Of a stretch of 64,000 nt of DNA, positions 35,601-43,832 are shown piece by piece. This DNA is from Nitrospira sp. (lineage in GTDB: Bacteria; Nitrospirota; Nitrospiria; Nitrospirales; Nitrospiraceae). The stretch's first letter is position 1; the number at the start of each line of letters is the position of its first letter. The notes below the pieces were generated by a model. The model searched no databases and was not told the origin of the DNA. It worked only from the letters and a program-made list of their open reading frames with translations. Location: NCBI GenBank assembly GCA_029194665.1, contig JARFXO010000003.1, forward strand, positions 620,001 to 684,000. The letters run 5' to 3'. The position numbers and the translations under genes were made by a program.

Positions 35601-36614
35601 ATGCGAATATTCCTGTCGTTCTCCTTCCGTGAGGAAGATCACGACCTGGTGAATGTCGTCGAGCGAATACTCGCCAGTCACGGTGCGCGCATCGTATCCG
35701 GCCAAACCCTTGCGGGTGAAAACATCTCAGAAGCGATTAAGCGGTGCTTACAGGAAACAGATGCTCTTGTTGCACTGTTTACGAGGCGCGACCTGCTCGC
35801 AGACGGCACCTGGACCACCCACGCCTGGGTCCGTGATGAATATGTCTATGTCAGGAGCATCAACAAACCGGCCTTGGCTCTAGTGGAAGATGGCGTTGAG
35901 GGCGGCGGAGCTACTGAAGGGACAGAATTCATTACCTTAGACCGGAAAGCGCCTCTTCCCACGCTTCTAGCACTGTCTGAAGTTCTCGGACGCTGGAGGG
36001 GAGAATTTAGCCCACGACATCAAGACGTTACGCCACCAGCACGCGAACGACTCCGTTCTAGTCAGAGACAGACTAGCAAGACGGCTAAGCGGAAAGCCGG
36101 GCTGCAAAGTGCAAAGCGCGAGCAAGCGCCAAGGATCTTTGTAAACTATCGCCGCGAGAATGCTCAGGGGCGCGGCGGTCGACTTGCGGACAACCTGAGA
36201 CTTTTTCTTGGCGACCGGAATGTATTCTTCGACCAAGACGACATTCCCCCGGGGGTCGACTTTGTCGCGGAGAGTTTGCGTGCTGTTGCCGACTCCTGCC
36301 TCCTCCTTGCAGTGATCGGCAAGGACTGGGCTTTCGCTAAGGATGATTTCGGCAGTCACCGTCTAACGAACCCTGCAGACTTGGTTCGGCGAGAGCTGGA
36401 AACCGCGATTGAGCACAATCTTCCCATTATCCCAGTACTGATCGATGGTGCTGCAATGCCACGCGAAGATCAACTTCCAACAGAACTTCAGGGCGTCGCT
36501 CGGAGAAACGCCATGGAGATCCGAGATACACGGTGGACTTACGACATTCGTTATGTTGCGGAGAAACTCGCCGAGCAGCTCGGCGTGGAACCGCGTTTTA
36601 AGCGCGAGGGCTAA
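35601..36614 (+). CDS. Protein with two TIR domains in tandem
   Basis: 337 aa. Domain 1 (residues 1-~135) starts RIFLSFSFREEDHDLVNVVE and includes VSGQTLAGENISEAIKRCLQ and ALVALFTRRD. Its helix WTTHAWVRDEYVYVRSINKP places a candidate catalytic Glu at E80. A basic linker (~140-175) follows. Domain 2 (~177-330) is RIFVNYRRENAQGRGGRLAD, VFFDQDDIPPGVDFVAESL, LLLAVIGKDWA and LVRRELETAIEHNLPIIPVL, with candidate Glu at E265. Bacterial TIR domains are often NAD-cleaving or cyclic-ADP-ribose-producing effectors of anti-phage systems, or signalling modules. No SAVED, Argonaute, Thoeris ThsA or NLR partner is adjacent, so the role is open. It heads the accessory zone 35.6-46.8 kb. Confidence 0.85.
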   Translation: MRIFLSFSFREEDHDLVNVVERILASHGARIVSGQTLAGENISEAIKRCLQETDALVALFTRRDLLADGTWTTHAWVRDEYVYVRSINKPALALVEDGVEGGGATEGTEFITLDRKAPLPTLLALSEVLGRWRGEFSPRHQDVTPPARERLRSSQRQTSKTAKRKAGLQSAKREQAPRIFVNYRRENAQGRGGRLADNLRLFLGDRNVFFDQDDIPPGVDFVAESLRAVADSCLLLAVIGKDWAFAKDDFGSHRLTNPADLVRRELETAIEHNLPIIPVLIDGAAMPREDQLPTELQGVARRNAMEIRDTRWTYDIRYVAEKLAEQLGVEPRFKREG

Positions 36615-37998: not shown

Positions 37999-39627
37999 TC
38001 AGAGCCGTTCCCCGTACTTTCGGTAGTGTTGCTTCTTGGCGTCGGCAATCCAATTATCCCGTTTAATGCGCTCAGGATCGGTCTCAAGCTTCTTTGCGAT
38101 CTTCGCGATATCTTCCGGTTTCCAACGAGCAATTTGGATAAACGTGCGGGTGCCCATCTTATTGAGGGTCTGTGCGACGGCAGGTCCGATCCCAGAGATC
38201 TTTTTGAGATCGTCTCCCTGACCGTCTTTACTCACTTTTGACTGTCCTATCGGGGAATCAGGCTCGGCTCCATTCTGTCGGCTCTGACGAGACGCTACGG
38301 CGGCTGGGGATGCTTTACCGCGAAATGCCGCCCGCGTCTCTTTGAGGCGTTTTTGCAGGCGATCGATCTGCTCATCTTTCTCTGGAATACCCTGCACCGC
38401 TCTCCATAGATCTTGACGCTCCGCTTGAAGGTCTTGCAACTGACGGCGAAGACCCCCAATCTGTTCGTCCCGATCATGCAACAGTTGTTCATCACGCAAA
38501 TGTTGTGCACGGAGCTCGCCTTGTGCAACACATTGTTTTTGGAGTTTCGCCACCTCCACGTCATGTTGATGACCGGTGCGTGCGGATGTTCTTTCCCATT
38601 CTTTGAGCTCTGATTCCTTCTCGCGAAGGAGATGAGTCACCGGCACAAGCTCCTCAATTCGCCGGTCCCGCTCAGCAATGGATTGTTCGAGGTGCTGGAT
38701 TGTGCCCCGATGGGCGGCTTCCCGATCGCTCAGTTCGACCTCCAGCTGATGAATGCGGTCTTGCGCCGATTCCAGCTTCTTGACTTGGGCTCGGAGTCGG
38801 TCCCGATCGACGAGGCCTTCGTTGAGTTGGGCGATATGCTCTCGCAGCACCCGGATTTCCTCCTCCATAACCTCGCGGGCTTGGTCGGTGGTCCGACAGG
38901 CTTGTTGGGCCGCACGCAGTTCTTCAGTCTGGGCGGTCGCGATCGCATCGAACTCGCTGATCTGTTGGTCGCGTTCAGCGATGGACCGTTCGAGCTGCTG
39001 GATCCCGCCCCGATGGGCGGCCTCCCGATCACTCAGTTCCACCTCCAGTTGATGGATGCGGTCTTGCGCCGATCTCAGCTTCGCAACCTGAGTTCGGAGT
39101 CGGTCCCGATCGACGAGGCCTTCGTTGAGTTGGGCGATATGCTCCCGCAGGACCAGGACTTCCTGCTCCATGACCTCGCGGGCTTGGTCGGCCGTACGAC
39201 TGGCCTGTTGGGCCGCGCGGAGTTCCTCATCGTGGGCAGCCGCGATCGTATTGACCTCACTCACCTGTTGGCGTGCAGCGACTCCCTCAGCCTCCAAGTC
39301 CGTCAGTCGTCTTGATCGTACAGCCAATTCTGCTTCGAGCGCCTTCACCCGTTCGCCGCGCGCGGTGAGCTCACGTTGGGCTGAGGAGTACAACATCTCG
39401 GATGACATGAGTTTCTGTTCGAACACTTGCATCGCCGAGGTCTTTACCTTCAAATCGTGCGACATCGTCTCCAGCGCCTGTTCCTTGGTTCTCAATTGTT
39501 TGGCGAGATCCCCGTATGGTTGCTCAATCGAACGTTTTGGGAGGCCACGCAACAACCAGCCGACCGCGAGACCGATTCCAGCGGCGACGAGGAGACATCC
39601 GACCATCTGACTCATGAGTGTGATCAT
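37999..39627 (-). CDS. Membrane-anchored coiled-coil protein with C-terminal helix-hairpin-helix domain (two-repeat paralogue)
   Basis: 542 aa. One N-terminal TM segment (residues ~9-27, VGCLLVAAGIGLAVGWLL) precedes ~430 residues of coiled coil. Two 101-residue units (303 bp apart) contain LREHIAQLNEGLVDRDRLR and RIHQLEVELSDREAAHRG. The end (~470-542) is a compact domain, DDLKKISGIGPAVAQTLNKM, ARWKPEDIAKIAKKL, NWIADAKKQHYRKYGERL, of the helix-hairpin-helix type seen in several bacterial proteins of unknown function. It starts 14 bases after the OmpA-like gene on the same strand, so the two form an operon. A larger paralogue lies upstream at 40807-43290. Confidence 0.8.
   Translation of the reverse strand: MITLMSQMVGCLLVAAGIGLAVGWLLRGLPKRSIEQPYGDLAKQLRTKEQALETMSHDLKVKTSAMQVFEQKLMSSEMLYSSAQRELTARGERVKALEAELAVRSRRLTDLEAEGVAARQQVSEVNTIAAAHDEELRAAQQASRTADQAREVMEQEVLVLREHIAQLNEGLVDRDRLRTQVAKLRSAQDRIHQLEVELSDREAAHRGGIQQLERSIAERDQQISEFDAIATAQTEELRAAQQACRTTDQAREVMEEEIRVLREHIAQLNEGLVDRDRLRAQVKKLESAQDRIHQLEVELSDREAAHRGTIQHLEQSIAERDRRIEELVPVTHLLREKESELKEWERTSARTGHQHDVEVAKLQKQCVAQGELRAQHLRDEQLLHDRDEQIGGLRRQLQDLQAERQDLWRAVQGIPEKDEQIDRLQKRLKETRAAFRGKASPAAVASRQSRQNGAEPDSPIGQSKVSKDGQGDDLKKISGIGPAVAQTLNKMGTRTFIQIARWKPEDIAKIAKKLETDPERIKRDNWIADAKKQHYRKYGERL
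38630..39240. repeat. Two 303-bp tandem coding repeats
   Basis: The landmark encoding IAQLNEGLVDRD recurs at a spacing of exactly 303 bp (about 38818 and 39121). These are the two coiled-coil units of the 542-aa protein and are diverged from each other more than the units of the larger paralogue. Confidence 0.8.
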
Positions 39628-39641
39628 AGGTCATTCCGTCC

Positions 39642-40502
39642 TTACATCAGTATTTCTATCCGTTCATTCTGTTGGAGGCCCAGTTGCTGGCTCCCATGGG
39701 TGAGAGGGCGTGTCGAACCATAGCCGATGGTAGTAAACGGATTCGTGAGCCCATGACTGGTCAAGTATTGCTTTACCGCTTCGGCACGTCGCCGGCTCAA
39801 CTGCATATTGTACTCCGCCTCACCAACGGTATCGGTATGGCCCCCGATTTCAATCGGCGTGTCCGGAGTTCTTCGCAAGAGAACGATGATTTGGTCCAGC
39901 ACGAGCTGTCCTTTGGTCGTGATCGTGGCACTCTTCGGCTCAAATTCGATCGAGGATTTCGCCAGGACCTGATTCAGCAACAGCTGTAATGCCGACAGGG
40001 GAACAGTGGTGGAGGTCGATGCTGTCGTCGGCACGACCACCACACGGTCTTCAATTCGTAAGCCCGCCCGTATCGCCGGAGCCATGGCCTGTAGTACCTC
40101 AGCCTTTTCGCGATGTCCGGGAACCTGACCGGTCACGACCAGCGAGCGCCCATCGATGATGATGGAACCCCGCTTGACCATCAAACCCAAGATCGGCAAG
40201 AGTTGCGGAACCTGGTCCACCCACACAGCCGCTTTGACCTGCTTATCGACGATGAACTGGTCGATCACACGCATTCGCGTTTTCGCAGAGAGTGTATGAG
40301 CCTGATCAAGAATGGTCAGCTTGCTGCGTTCATTGGGCAACGAACCTCGAAGCACCAAACTGCCTTGTTCGAGGCTGGCGTGAAAGGTGGCAGGAATCAA
40401 GGCCGTGGGCTGTGATGGCGAGGAGAGATGTCTTGGGATGCACACCAGGGCGAGGACTATCAGCGCCACCACACCGCCGATGAGGATCCCCGTACGGCTC
40501 AT
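39642..40502 (-). CDS. OmpA-family protein (BON-like region plus OmpA C-terminal domain)
   Basis: 286 aa. An N-terminal TM anchor (MSRTGILIGGVVALIVLALVC) is followed by ~130 residues with two BON-like half repeats (LEQGSLVLRGSLPNERSKLT, VKRGSIIIDGRSLVVTGQVP). The C-terminal OmpA domain (~175-286) has LAKSSIEFEPKSATITTKGQ, IEIGGHTDTVGEAEYNMQLS, RRRAEAVKQYL and TTIGYGSTRP, which bind peptidoglycan. The layout resembles ArfA-type OmpA proteins. It is followed after 14 bases by the two-repeat coiled-coil gene. The ~120 bp upstream (40503-40623) are homologous to 43523-43640, upstream of the deleted copy, showing that promoter and gene pair were duplicated together. Confidence 0.87.
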   Translation of the reverse strand: MSRTGILIGGVVALIVLALVCIPRHLSSPSQPTALIPATFHASLEQGSLVLRGSLPNERSKLTILDQAHTLSAKTRMRVIDQFIVDKQVKAAVWVDQVPQLLPILGLMVKRGSIIIDGRSLVVTGQVPGHREKAEVLQAMAPAIRAGLRIEDRVVVVPTTASTSTTVPLSALQLLLNQVLAKSSIEFEPKSATITTKGQLVLDQIIVLLRRTPDTPIEIGGHTDTVGEAEYNMQLSRRRAEAVKQYLTSHGLTNPFTTIGYGSTRPLTHGSQQLGLQQNERIEILM

Positions 40503-40806
40503 GAGATCAGCCCGTTGTAGACAAGATGACTATCGGGGTGCGACGCGGCACGGTACCATAATTGATGATCTGCGGGCTAGGGTGAGATTCGACCAGTCAA
40601 GCAGACTCAGCAGAAGGGCGCACAGGTTCTCTTTGCTGCCCGGTCAGGGCTGATCCATTGAGAGGTTAGACGATGAAGCCATCCACGTGAAATGTGTTGC
40701 CATGGTCGTCATTGGCCCAGCCGGTTGGTTGAGGGATTTGGCCTGGCAGGCCAGACAGAGGATCATCTCACAGATGACCGGGAAAAAACCGTGCAATGAA
40801 GTGCTT

Positions 40807-43290
40807 CTAGACCCGTTCCCCGTATTTTCGGTAGTGTTGCTTCTTGGCGTCCGCGATCCAATTCTCCCGTTTAATGCGCTCTGGATCGGCATCGAGCTTC
40901 CTTGCGATTTTTTCGATATCTTCCGGTTTCCAACGAGCGATTTGGACAAATGTGCGGGTGCCCATTTTATGGAGGCTGTCAGCGAGGACCGGTCCGATCC
41001 CGCAGATCTTTTTAAGATCGTCTTCCTGAACATTTTTACTGACTTTGGGCTGTTTGCCTTGAGCATTCGACCCAGCTCCATTCTGGCTTGACTGGCGAGG
41101 CGCTGCGGTTGTTGGAGCTGCGTTCGCACGATGTGCCGTTCGCAGTTCCCTGAGTCGTTTTTGCAGACGATCGATCTGCTCATCTTTCCCTGGGATGCTC
41201 TGTACCTCTTGTACTAGATTGTGATGCTCCGCTTGAAGGTCCTGTAACTGACGGTGGAGACTTGCAATTTGCTCGTCTCGTTCATGGAGCTGTTGCTCAT
41301 TGAGGAGAAGTTGCTCGCGGAGTTGGTCCTGTGCCGCGCATTGCTCTTGGAGCTTTGTCATTTCTGTCTTGTGTTCTTGAACAGTGCGCGCGTATTTTTT
41401 ATCCCATTCTTTGAGCTCTACTCCCTTCTCGCGAAGCAGGTGGGTGACAGGCATCAGCTCTTCGATCCGTCGGTCTCGCTCCGCAATCACCCCTTCGAAC
41501 TGCTGAAGCACTCCCCGATGGGTGGCTTCCCGATCGCTCAGCTCCACCTCCAACTGATGGACGCGGCCTTGCATCGACTCCAACTTCTTGACCTGGGCAC
41601 GGAGTCGGTCCCGGTCGGCGAGCCCCTCGTTGAGTTGAGCGATATGCTCCCGCAGGACCCGGATTTCCTCCTTCAAGACCTCGTGACTTTGCTCGGCAGT
41701 CCGATAAGCCTGTTGAGCCCCGTGCAGTTCGTCTCTCTGGGCGGCCGCAGTCGCCTCGACCTCACTAATCCGCCGGTCTCGCTCCGCAATCACCCCTTCG
41801 AACTGCTGAAGCACTCCCCGATGGGCGACTTCCCGATCGCTCAGCTCCACCTCCAACTGATGGACGCGGTCTTGCATCGACGCCAACTTCTTGACCTGGG
41901 CACGGAGTCGGTCGCGGTCGGCGAGCCCCTCGTTGAGTTGGGCGATATGCTCTCGTAGGATGCGGATTTCCTCCTTCAAGACCTCGTGGGTCTGTTCGGC
42001 AGCCCGACAGGCCTGCTGCGCTCCCTGCAGTTCGTCTCTCTGGGCGGCCGCAGTCGCCTCGACCTCACTAATCCGCCGGTCTCGCTCCGCAATGGCCCCT
42101 TCGAACTGCTGGAGCGTGTTCCGATGGGCGGCTTCCCGATCACTCAGCTCCACCTCCAACTGATGGACGCGGCCTTGCATCGACTCCAACTTCTTGACCT
42201 GGGCACGGAGTCGGTCGCGGTCGGCGAGCCCCTCGTTGAGTTGGGCGATATGCTCTCGTAGAACGCGGATTTCCTCCTTCAAGACCTCGTGGGTCTGTTC
42301 GGCAGCCCGACAGGCCTGCTGCGCTCCCTGCAGTTCGTCTCTCTGGGCGGCCGCAGTCGCCTCGACCTCACTAATCCGCCGGTCTCGCTCCACGACGACT
42401 CCTTCGAACTGCTGGAGTGTCCTGCGATGGGCGACTTCCCGGTCACTCAGTTCGACCTCCAACTGATGAACACGGTCTTGCATGGACTCCAGCCTCTCGA
42501 CCTGGGTACGGAGTCGGTCGCGGTCGGCGAGCCCCTCGTTGAGTTGAGCGATATGCTCTCGTAGAACGCGGATTTCCTCCTTCAAGACCTCGTGGGTCTG
42601 TTCGGCAATCCGACAGGCCTGCTGCGCTCCCTGCAGTTCGTCTCTCTGGGCGGCCGCAGTCGCCTCGACCTCACTAATCCGCCGGTCTCGCTCCACGACG
42701 ACTCCTTCGAACTGCTGGAGTGTCCTGCGATGGGCGACTTCCCGGTCACTCAGTTCGACCTCCAACTGATGAACACGGTCTTGCATGGACTCCAGCCTCT
42801 CGACCTGGGTACGGAGTCGGTCGCGGTCGGCGAGCCCCTCGTTGAGTTGAGCGATATGCTCTCGTAGAACGCGGATTTCCTCCTTCAAGACCTCGTGGGT
42901 CTGTTCGGCAGCCTGACAAGCCTGTTGAGCCCCGCGAAGTTCGTTGACCAGGGCGGCAATGGTCGAATTGAGCTCACTCACGCGTTGGCGTGCCGCAACT
43001 CCTTCAGCTTCCACGTCCGTCAGCCGTTTCGACCGTACAGACGCTTCTGTTTCGAGCGTTTTCAGTTGCTCGCCACGGGCGGTCAGCTCCCGTTGGGCTG
43101 AGGAGAACTGTGTTTCGGACGACATGATCTTTTGTTCGAGAACCTGCAAGGCTGCGGTCTTCACCTTCAAATCGTGTGACGTCGTCTCCAATACCCGTTC
43201 CTTAGCCCGCAACAGATTGGCAAGCTCCTGGTATTGTTGCTCGAGAGAATCCTTGGGGGGAGGCTGCAACCATCTGCCTAGTGTGCTCAT
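40807..43290 (-). CDS. Soluble coiled-coil protein with five 101-aa repeats and helix-hairpin-helix domain (expanded paralogue)
   Basis: 827 aa, paralogous to the 542-aa protein over its whole length. Five coiled-coil units each carry LREHIAQLNEGLADRDRLR, VHQLEVELSDRE and ERDRRISEVEATAAAQRDEL. The last ~70 residues are the same HhH-like domain (DDLKKICGIGPVLADSLHKM, NWIADAKKQHYRKYGERV). The start MSTLGRWLQPPPKDSLEQQ aligns with both edges of the anchor region of the paralogue, but the TM codons between CAGATGG and TGGTTG are gone. This protein is therefore predicted to be cytoplasmic. Length difference 285 = three extra units (303) minus the lost anchor (18). No function is known. It lies downstream of an OmpA remnant. 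Confidence 0.82.
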   Translation of the reverse strand: MSTLGRWLQPPPKDSLEQQYQELANLLRAKERVLETTSHDLKVKTAALQVLEQKIMSSETQFSSAQRELTARGEQLKTLETEASVRSKRLTDVEAEGVAARQRVSELNSTIAALVNELRGAQQACQAAEQTHEVLKEEIRVLREHIAQLNEGLADRDRLRTQVERLESMQDRVHQLEVELSDREVAHRRTLQQFEGVVVERDRRISEVEATAAAQRDELQGAQQACRIAEQTHEVLKEEIRVLREHIAQLNEGLADRDRLRTQVERLESMQDRVHQLEVELSDREVAHRRTLQQFEGVVVERDRRISEVEATAAAQRDELQGAQQACRAAEQTHEVLKEEIRVLREHIAQLNEGLADRDRLRAQVKKLESMQGRVHQLEVELSDREAAHRNTLQQFEGAIAERDRRISEVEATAAAQRDELQGAQQACRAAEQTHEVLKEEIRILREHIAQLNEGLADRDRLRAQVKKLASMQDRVHQLEVELSDREVAHRGVLQQFEGVIAERDRRISEVEATAAAQRDELHGAQQAYRTAEQSHEVLKEEIRVLREHIAQLNEGLADRDRLRAQVKKLESMQGRVHQLEVELSDREATHRGVLQQFEGVIAERDRRIEELMPVTHLLREKGVELKEWDKKYARTVQEHKTEMTKLQEQCAAQDQLREQLLLNEQQLHERDEQIASLHRQLQDLQAEHHNLVQEVQSIPGKDEQIDRLQKRLRELRTAHRANAAPTTAAPRQSSQNGAGSNAQGKQPKVSKNVQEDDLKKICGIGPVLADSLHKMGTRTFVQIARWKPEDIEKIARKLDADPERIKRENWIADAKKQHYRKYGERV
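41430..42944. repeat. Five 303-bp tandem coding repeats
   Basis: The landmark GGCGAGCCCCTCGTTGAGTT recurs at 303-bp steps (about 41620, 41923, 42226, 42529, 42832). The two units nearest the 5' end of the gene (42.3-42.9 kb) are almost identical at the DNA level, pointing to recent unequal crossing-over. All units stay in frame. Confidence 0.9.
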
Positions 43291-43318
43291 AGTGTATTCA
43301 GTCCTTGCATCAACAATT

Positions 43319-43522
43319 TTACGTGATGGTTCCTTTGAAGGCTTGCGTGGGGTCTCCCATATGATGGGGACCTGTCGAATTATGACTCGTGGTGATCAAC
43401 GGATTCGTGAACCTGTGACTGGTCATGTACAGCTTGATAGGTTCGGCGGGAGGTGGGATGCACACGACGGCGAGAAGTATCAGGGCAACGACACCGCCGG
43501 TGAGAATCCCCGCACGCCTCAT
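43319..43522 (-). pseudogene. Internally deleted copy of the OmpA-family gene
   Basis: 67 codons. The start MRRAGILTGGVVALILLAVV CIP matches the anchor of the OmpA protein at 39642-40502. It is then fused directly to the distal end (AEPIKLYMTSHRFTNPLITT versus AEAVKQYLTSHGLTNPFTTI). The whole periplasmic region and the OmpA core are missing (about 620 bp deleted). The frame is open, so a short membrane peptide could still be made, but it keeps no functional domain. It lies 28 bases upstream of the expanded coiled-coil gene, in the position the intact OmpA gene holds in the other cassette. Confidence 0.85.
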
Positions 43523-43832
43523 GAGCTCGTTCCACTGTGGATGATGTGACGACTAGGGTGCGAGGCGTCACGGTACCACATTTGATAATAAATGTACTAG
43601 GCTAAGATTTGCCACTCAAGCAGGCGGCTGCACAGACTCTGGTGAGGGAAAGGACCTCTATCATTCATCCGAGAGGATTACGAATGGTCACTGTATGGGG
43701 TTCAATGCGGAGGATCCTGGTAGGGCACCGGTACAGCGCGTATCTCTTTACACATCTCGGTCGATCGGAAGGACAGAACAACCGGGGAATTCATCAGCTT
43801 CATCATGGACGTAGGAACGATATGCTCTTCTG

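Follow-up and report, generated by a model that had tools for sequence, protein, structure and literature searches.

Why should two genes for related coiled-coil proteins stand side by side on one strand, one behind a complete OmpA gene and the other behind the remains of one? The question is raised by a locus in a 64,000-nucleotide stretch of contig JARFXO010000003.1 from Nitrospira sp. (the window; source genome size 4.8 Mb). On its minus strand, two cassettes lie head to tail: OmpA plus T (286 and 542 amino acids, aa), where T is a transmembrane (TM)-anchored coiled-coil protein with a C-terminal helix-hairpin-helix (HhH) tail, and an OmpA relic plus S (67 and 827 aa), where S is the soluble relative of T. 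We consider it very probable that a single duplication took place within the genus Nitrospira, that the upstream copy lost both OmpA and the TM anchor, and that the coil later expanded by 101-residue units. Joined to a mechanism in which OmpA and T would tie a cytoplasmic partner to the cell wall and S would be the freed cytoplasmic half, this history is our best overall explanation, with a probability of about 0.5.

Two paralogous cassettes

The cassettes are adjacent, head to tail and paralogous, as had been proposed in an earlier reading of the letters of the window (the sequence-only reading), and comprise the following features.

37999..39627, minus strand: T, 542 aa, a coiled-coil protein with a TM anchor and a C-terminal HhH tail (open reading frame, ORF; about 32 genomes of the genus have an orthologue, and the family at large has single-copy homologues)
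39544..39612, minus strand: residues 6-28 of T, its TM anchor, in which Cys11 is conserved (hydropathy; Cys kept in 48/48 pairs)
38656..39261, minus strand: two 303-bp (101-aa) coiled-coil units of T (repeat analysis; hydrophobic period 3.49)
38002..38220, minus strand: HhH/H3TH tail domain of T (borderline HHH_5 match; four-helix AlphaFold2 model)
39642..40502, minus strand: OmpA gene, 286 aa, with N-terminal anchor, BON-like region and OmpA domain (PF00691, 1.3e-20; weak N-terminal match to ArfA/OmpATb)
40503..40589, minus strand: leader/promoter region of the OmpA-T cassette (75% identity with the S leader)
40807..43290, minus strand: S, 827 aa, a soluble coiled-coil protein that has an HhH tail and lacks a TM segment (ORF; S heads in 39 genomes)
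41464..42978, minus strand: five 303-bp (101-aa) coiled-coil units of S (repeat analysis; period 3.48 = 101/29)
40810..41028, minus strand: HhH/H3TH tail domain of S (alignment to the T tail and outgroups)
43319..43522, minus strand: OmpA relic, 67 aa, anchor joined to about the last 45 OmpA residues (DNA alignment; relatives hold other fragments)
43454..43609, minus strand: promoter and 5' leader of S, including the old OmpA start codon (similarity to the OmpA-T leader)

Homology extends beyond the coiled coil, and its absence there would have counted for the sequence-only reading against a duplication: DNA identity is 86% for the tails (38001-38245 versus 40809-41053), 75% for the leaders (40434-40589 versus 43454-43609) and 73% for the OmpA 3' ends (39706-39785 versus 43368-43447). 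The distal OmpA has been cut down to its anchor and C-terminal end, as that reading described. The complete OmpA gene is separated from the T gene by 14 bp; its product matches PF00691 at 74.0 bits (gathering cut-off 27.2) and contains the GHTD and LSxxRA motifs. By hydropathy (KD19), T has one TM segment (2.28 at residue 8), whereas S reaches a maximum of 0.51 over the whole protein. The T cassette has both the upstream OmpA gene and the TM anchor that define what we call the OmpA + TM-HhH module; S, having no TM segment, is a derivative of this module and not a member of it.

One duplication within the genus

A genus-level search covered 79 genomes, 44 of them with a match to T, and 40 stretches were read, across which the order S, then OmpA and T downstream, recurs. 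Copies of S come from 39 genomes and copies of T from about 32; both were read in 29 genomes, and at least 8 have S alone. These counts are lower bounds because of contig ends. Named relatives of the gene family are mainly Nitrospira metagenome-assembled genomes. Other genera of the Nitrospiraceae have a single cassette, in which the gene right after OmpA encodes a TM-anchored, one-unit protein of 440-450 aa, and this outgroup cassette lies between purH and dnaE in the five loci where both flanks were read (L105, L106, L111, L112 and L113). Because the other genera carry this single cassette, the anchored, OmpA-partnered form with one unit is, on this comparison, the ancestral state. A tree of the 92-aa head recovers S as monophyletic (39 copies, 99/84), T as monophyletic (30 copies, 95/77) and the outgroup as separate, and so shows a single duplication, whose date with respect to the deepest branches is less certain.

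The sequence-only reading was therefore right in deriving the soluble protein from an anchored, OmpA-partnered form, but not in picturing a local event, since the duplication is old and genus-wide. It had also expected the duplication model to fail if relatives carried only the soluble form; some genomes do carry only that form, yet the outgroups are anchored and the model holds. The claim that S lost exactly the TM codons proved too strong, as genus-wide consensus heads show S to be shorter by about 17 codons, with a further 1-nt shift relative to T. Likewise, the short sequence matches taken for scars at the deletion edges are not readable as such, because the event is old.

In the deep genomes G061 and G012 (L072, L121), S stands alone behind dnaK-dnaJ-rsmE, away from purH-dnaE, and may have been moved by transfer or relocation. 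No relic was seen in the purH-dnaE interval of deep genomes without the cassette. This neighbourhood is an old synteny that is kept even where the cassette is absent.

Constraint on S and decay of the OmpA relic

Ratios of nonsynonymous to synonymous substitution (dN/dS, Nei-Gojobori) were 0.12-0.16 for S in five comparisons (0.16 against G055), 0.16-0.24 for T and 0.30-0.34 for OmpA. By this measure S is under purifying selection and is more strongly constrained than its anchored sister T, which bears out the earlier view that the long frame is not a product of random decay. The OmpA pieces left upstream of S differ among genomes: the window and G021 keep the anchor and 3' end, G034, G052 and G077 roughly the first 55 codons, and G006, G015, G016 and G017 a 16-aa start; several relics are frameshifted. 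The 67-aa frame of the window is not conserved in relatives. A conserved small protein was rejected because the frames there differ or are broken, and the relic is, judging from these frames, debris.

Three elements upstream of S are conserved: the start region of the former OmpA gene, a promoter-like block and the Shine-Dalgarno sequence that serves S. The 15 crown S leaders displayed keep the OmpA start codon with its flanking bases but decay in the middle, and a leader function for the persisting start region is possible. At window positions 43490-43530, as in the leaders of S in relatives, the OmpA start codon is kept with about 25 bases after it, although the frame that it opens is broken or very short.

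Coiled-coil units and probable tail exchange

Whole or nearly whole units number one in the outgroups, one in G061, one to four in T and about three to seven in crown S copies; N runs (assembly gaps or masking) inside the repeat arrays of L039, L040, L050 and L052 make some unit counts unreliable. The earlier counts of two units in T and five in S are correct for the window, but the direction inferred from them, from two to five, is not, as there is a single unit in the outgroups and in the S copy that branches deepest. Repeat expansion is thus placed later in both paralogues by these counts, and in S after loss of the anchor. The hydrophobic residue period of 3.48 equals 101/29, and therefore gain or loss of whole units preserves the coiled-coil register. 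Units of the window S resemble each other as much as they resemble the same-numbered units of G055, which indicates that the array turns over. Matches to GAS (PF13851) and BAR (PF03114) were above cut-off, but they fall on the repeated coil (for GAS, on five stretches of S), are accompanied by fragments of many unrelated coiled-coil families and were set aside as compositional; matches to SMC and Rad50 likewise reflect coiled-coil composition.

The tail has a different history from the head. In the tail tree S and T are intermixed, at least four label changes are forced by well-supported branches, and no bootstrap tree separates the two. The trees, which are the sole basis for this view, suggest that tails were exchanged between the paralogues while heads were kept apart. 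Recent gene conversion between the S and T tails was not seen in the window, where the tails are 68% identical and each is closer to its own kind in relatives.

Joint fate of OmpA and the TM anchor

No copy that was examined has OmpA without the TM segment or the TM segment without OmpA. The sequence-only reading had seen in the parallel losses a change of cellular location, which is partly supported: the losses of OmpA and anchor do coincide, whereas the relic itself decays freely. A reverse split is found in another genus (L107, L109, L116 and L117), where an independent second cassette pairs an OmpA of 348-361 aa with a partner of 114-166 aa that retains the TM segment and the start of the coil and has no HhH tail, a mirror image of S.

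Both anchors contain a Cys in 48 of the 48 pairs read. The OmpA Cys, in the motif VC[IVL]PRH, is placed where the helix meets the periplasm, and the preceding residue is V, L, F or I, which makes a lipobox unlikely. The partner has its Cys close to the N-terminal end (GCL), a position that is also predicted to be periplasmic by the positive-inside rule. The conserved Cys near the same face of both anchors suggests contact between them, and the OmpA and T anchors may pair in the membrane, perhaps through a disulfide. In other OmpA-HhH families, Cys is present in both members of 14 pairs, in neither of 10, in OmpA only in 4 and in the partner only in 1 (Fisher p = 0.0005, uncorrected for kinship, with two truncated OmpA frames dropped).

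The HhH tail domain

Against HHH_5 (PF14520, cut-off 27), the whole proteins score 22.8 bits (T) and 16.2 bits (S), and the isolated T tail scores 27.0. An AlphaFold2 model of the T tail shows a small four-helix domain, with block-wise pLDDT of 76-91 across its folded part. A fold search with this model gave weak likeness to RadA/Rad51 N-terminal domains, polymerase HhH regions and NusA AR2, with no match under E 0.1. The nearest solved chains by sequence are a 41-kDa complex I subunit and protein-O of the Dinoroseobacter shibae RC-LH1 complex. The C-terminal domain of protein-O has been described as resembling the ends of NuoE, an ATP synthase subunit and an endonuclease, its function being called obscure (PMC12079452). 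NCBIfam matches with the tail domain include NuoE, PhaH, L21 and S2 models, and a Flavobacteriaceae NrfD protein also ends in this domain. The bridge between envelope and DNA suggested in the sequence-only reading is unsupported, as the tail is promiscuous and occurs on several proteins without a known DNA role; general docking is its more likely role, as far as these sequence likenesses indicate. In Flavobacteriaceae (L274, L278, L279, L282-L286, L288 and L289-L291), NrfD-type subunits (Pfam-checked in L282) and L21-like proteins (MYAIVEIAG start) were observed to end in the same HhH tail.

Recurrence of the gene pair in other lineages

In Flavobacteriaceae, 19 of 21 TM-HhH genes have an OmpA gene in front of them, at a distance of -13 to +38 bp, and the same search found OmpA before none of 10 longer tail proteins (mostly NrfD-type). 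In a gammaproteobacterial order, OmpA is directly upstream of 8 of 13 TM-anchored tail genes, 2 further ones follow a gene for a TM protein similar to the BON-like part, and no OmpA gene precedes the tail proteins of other kinds, L21 and S2 among them. Single cases of the pair occur in Gemmatimonadetes, where most matches have no OmpA neighbour, and in Acidimicrobiales. A second Nitrospira family (L241-L248, in genomes G035, G058, G001, G005, G007, G032, G072 and G060) combines an OmpA of about 190 aa with TM proteins that have two or three HhH tails; the genome of the window gave no match to this pair at the threshold used. In Flavobacteriaceae, tail-bearing NrfD-size proteins, a class assigned by frame length, showed no association with the TM-HhH pair (12/21 versus 37/79, p = 0.47), and co-occurrence was therefore rejected as a hint of shared docking.

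No description of the OmpA + TM-HhH gene pair was found in the open-access literature. That the pair is a widespread, undescribed transenvelope module of several phyla, with anchors paired through their Cys, the HhH tail as a general docking domain that is fused to respiratory complexes, reaction centres and ribosomal proteins as well, and the cytoplasmic half freed in Nitrospira as a ruler of variable length, is a larger picture that we consider doubtful as a whole.

A possible tether and the alternatives

In the mechanism that we propose, the OmpA domain of the complete OmpA + T module would bind peptidoglycan, and the OmpA and T anchors would pair in the inner membrane with their Cys near the same periplasmic face. 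The rod and HhH tail of T would point into the cytoplasm, so that the partner of the tail is tied to the cell wall. The TM segment of T would serve chiefly to meet OmpA, which would explain why the two are always kept or lost together. S would be the freed cytoplasmic half, a rod with the same kind of tail and probably the same kind of partner, acting away from the envelope with a reach set by its number of whole units. The comparisons show architecture, ancestry, joint loss and retention, selection and recurrence; topology, peptidoglycan binding, anchor pairing, partner binding and cellular role are all inferred, and we hold the mechanism as a whole only tentatively, at somewhat less than an even chance. 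Several observations weigh against it. Peptidoglycan binding is deduced solely from membership of the OmpA family. The cassette is absent from many species of the genus and order, and its function is therefore dispensable; at least 8 genomes have S but neither T nor OmpA, so S does not need them. In Flavobacteriaceae alone the Cys correlation is weak (p = 0.057), and in five gammaproteobacterial loci (L315, L320, L328, L330 and L334) both anchor Cys lie near the cytoplasmic face, which makes a disulfide unlikely there; these Cys perhaps form a shared metal site.

Among the alternatives, it is unlikely that the tails bind DNA, with T tethering the chromosome to the envelope and S acting as a free DNA-bridging rod. 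The likeness of the tail model to RadA/Rad51 N-terminal domains and polymerase HhH regions, the weak HHH_5 and IMS_HHH matches and the adjoining dnaE are consistent with DNA binding, but no fold match falls under E 0.1, the domain also ends NuoE, PhaH, L21 and S2 models, a complex I subunit, protein-O and an NrfD-type protein, and the purH-dnaE neighbourhood persists without the cassette. Rather less likely still is co-assembly of S and T through matching repeats, in which S would lengthen or cap a membrane-tethered filament: the two share unit length and register, and their tails are intermixed with at least four forced exchanges, whereas S-only genomes lack T and OmpA, and unit numbers of S and T vary independently.

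An equally improbable option is that S stays membrane-bound through a short amphipathic N-terminal helix (MSTLxRWLQ) in place of the TM segment. The start M-x-x-L-x-[KR]-W-L is kept in most S copies and has a hydrophobic moment of 0.48-0.67 over nine residues; however, its mean hydrophobicity is near zero, Pro residues come next in many copies, and the peptide may be just the leftover edges of the deletion. We give almost no credence to random decay, with the distal cassette a pseudogene in progress: the OmpA relic is indeed broken differently by lineage, but a decaying S is ruled out by its dN/dS, which is low and below that of T, and by intact S in most genomes. A recent duplication private to this lineage is just as hard to credit; it would suit adjacent copies lying head to tail, and is ruled out by both copies being present in about 30 genomes with reciprocally monophyletic heads.

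Relation to known systems

The window's OmpA contains the full domain of the PF00691 peptidoglycan-binding proteins. It differs from them in being held by an N-terminal anchor with a Cys outside a normal lipobox, and in having as operon partner an HhH protein with a predicted cytoplasmic orientation. Mycobacterial ArfA/OmpATb combines BON and OmpA domains and is encoded in an operon with small membrane proteins. The order of anchor, BON-like region and OmpA domain is similar here, and the N-terminal part matches its model (NF051434) weakly, at 38.8 bits under a curated cut-off of 81; the partner gene here encodes instead a coiled coil with an HhH tail. Protein-O, NuoE, L21 and PhaH have their C-terminal domain in common with the T and S tails by sequence, and in these proteins it ends subunits of other complexes, whereas here it ends a coiled-coil rod paired with OmpA. 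Bacterial scaffolds such as crescentin and ZapG/YhcB resemble T and S in layout, having a long coiled coil in the cytoplasm and in some cases an N-terminal anchor; the 101-aa unit and HhH tail set T and S apart.

The locus offers a natural experiment on the building of cell-wall tethers, in which one module was divided at the membrane boundary, with opposite halves kept in two genera. The opposite splits predict two units, one of OmpA and anchor and the other of coil and HhH tail. The comparison also exposes a gene pair that recurs in Nitrospirota, Bacteroidota and Gammaproteobacteria (with single cases in Gemmatimonadota and Actinomycetota), ties the orphan HhH domain of NuoE, L21 and the reaction centre to the envelope, and points to a candidate coiled-coil ruler whose length changes by 101-residue steps among related species. 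Between dnaE and the T gene, the window also encodes a TIR-domain protein with two TIR_2 stretches (35601-36614).

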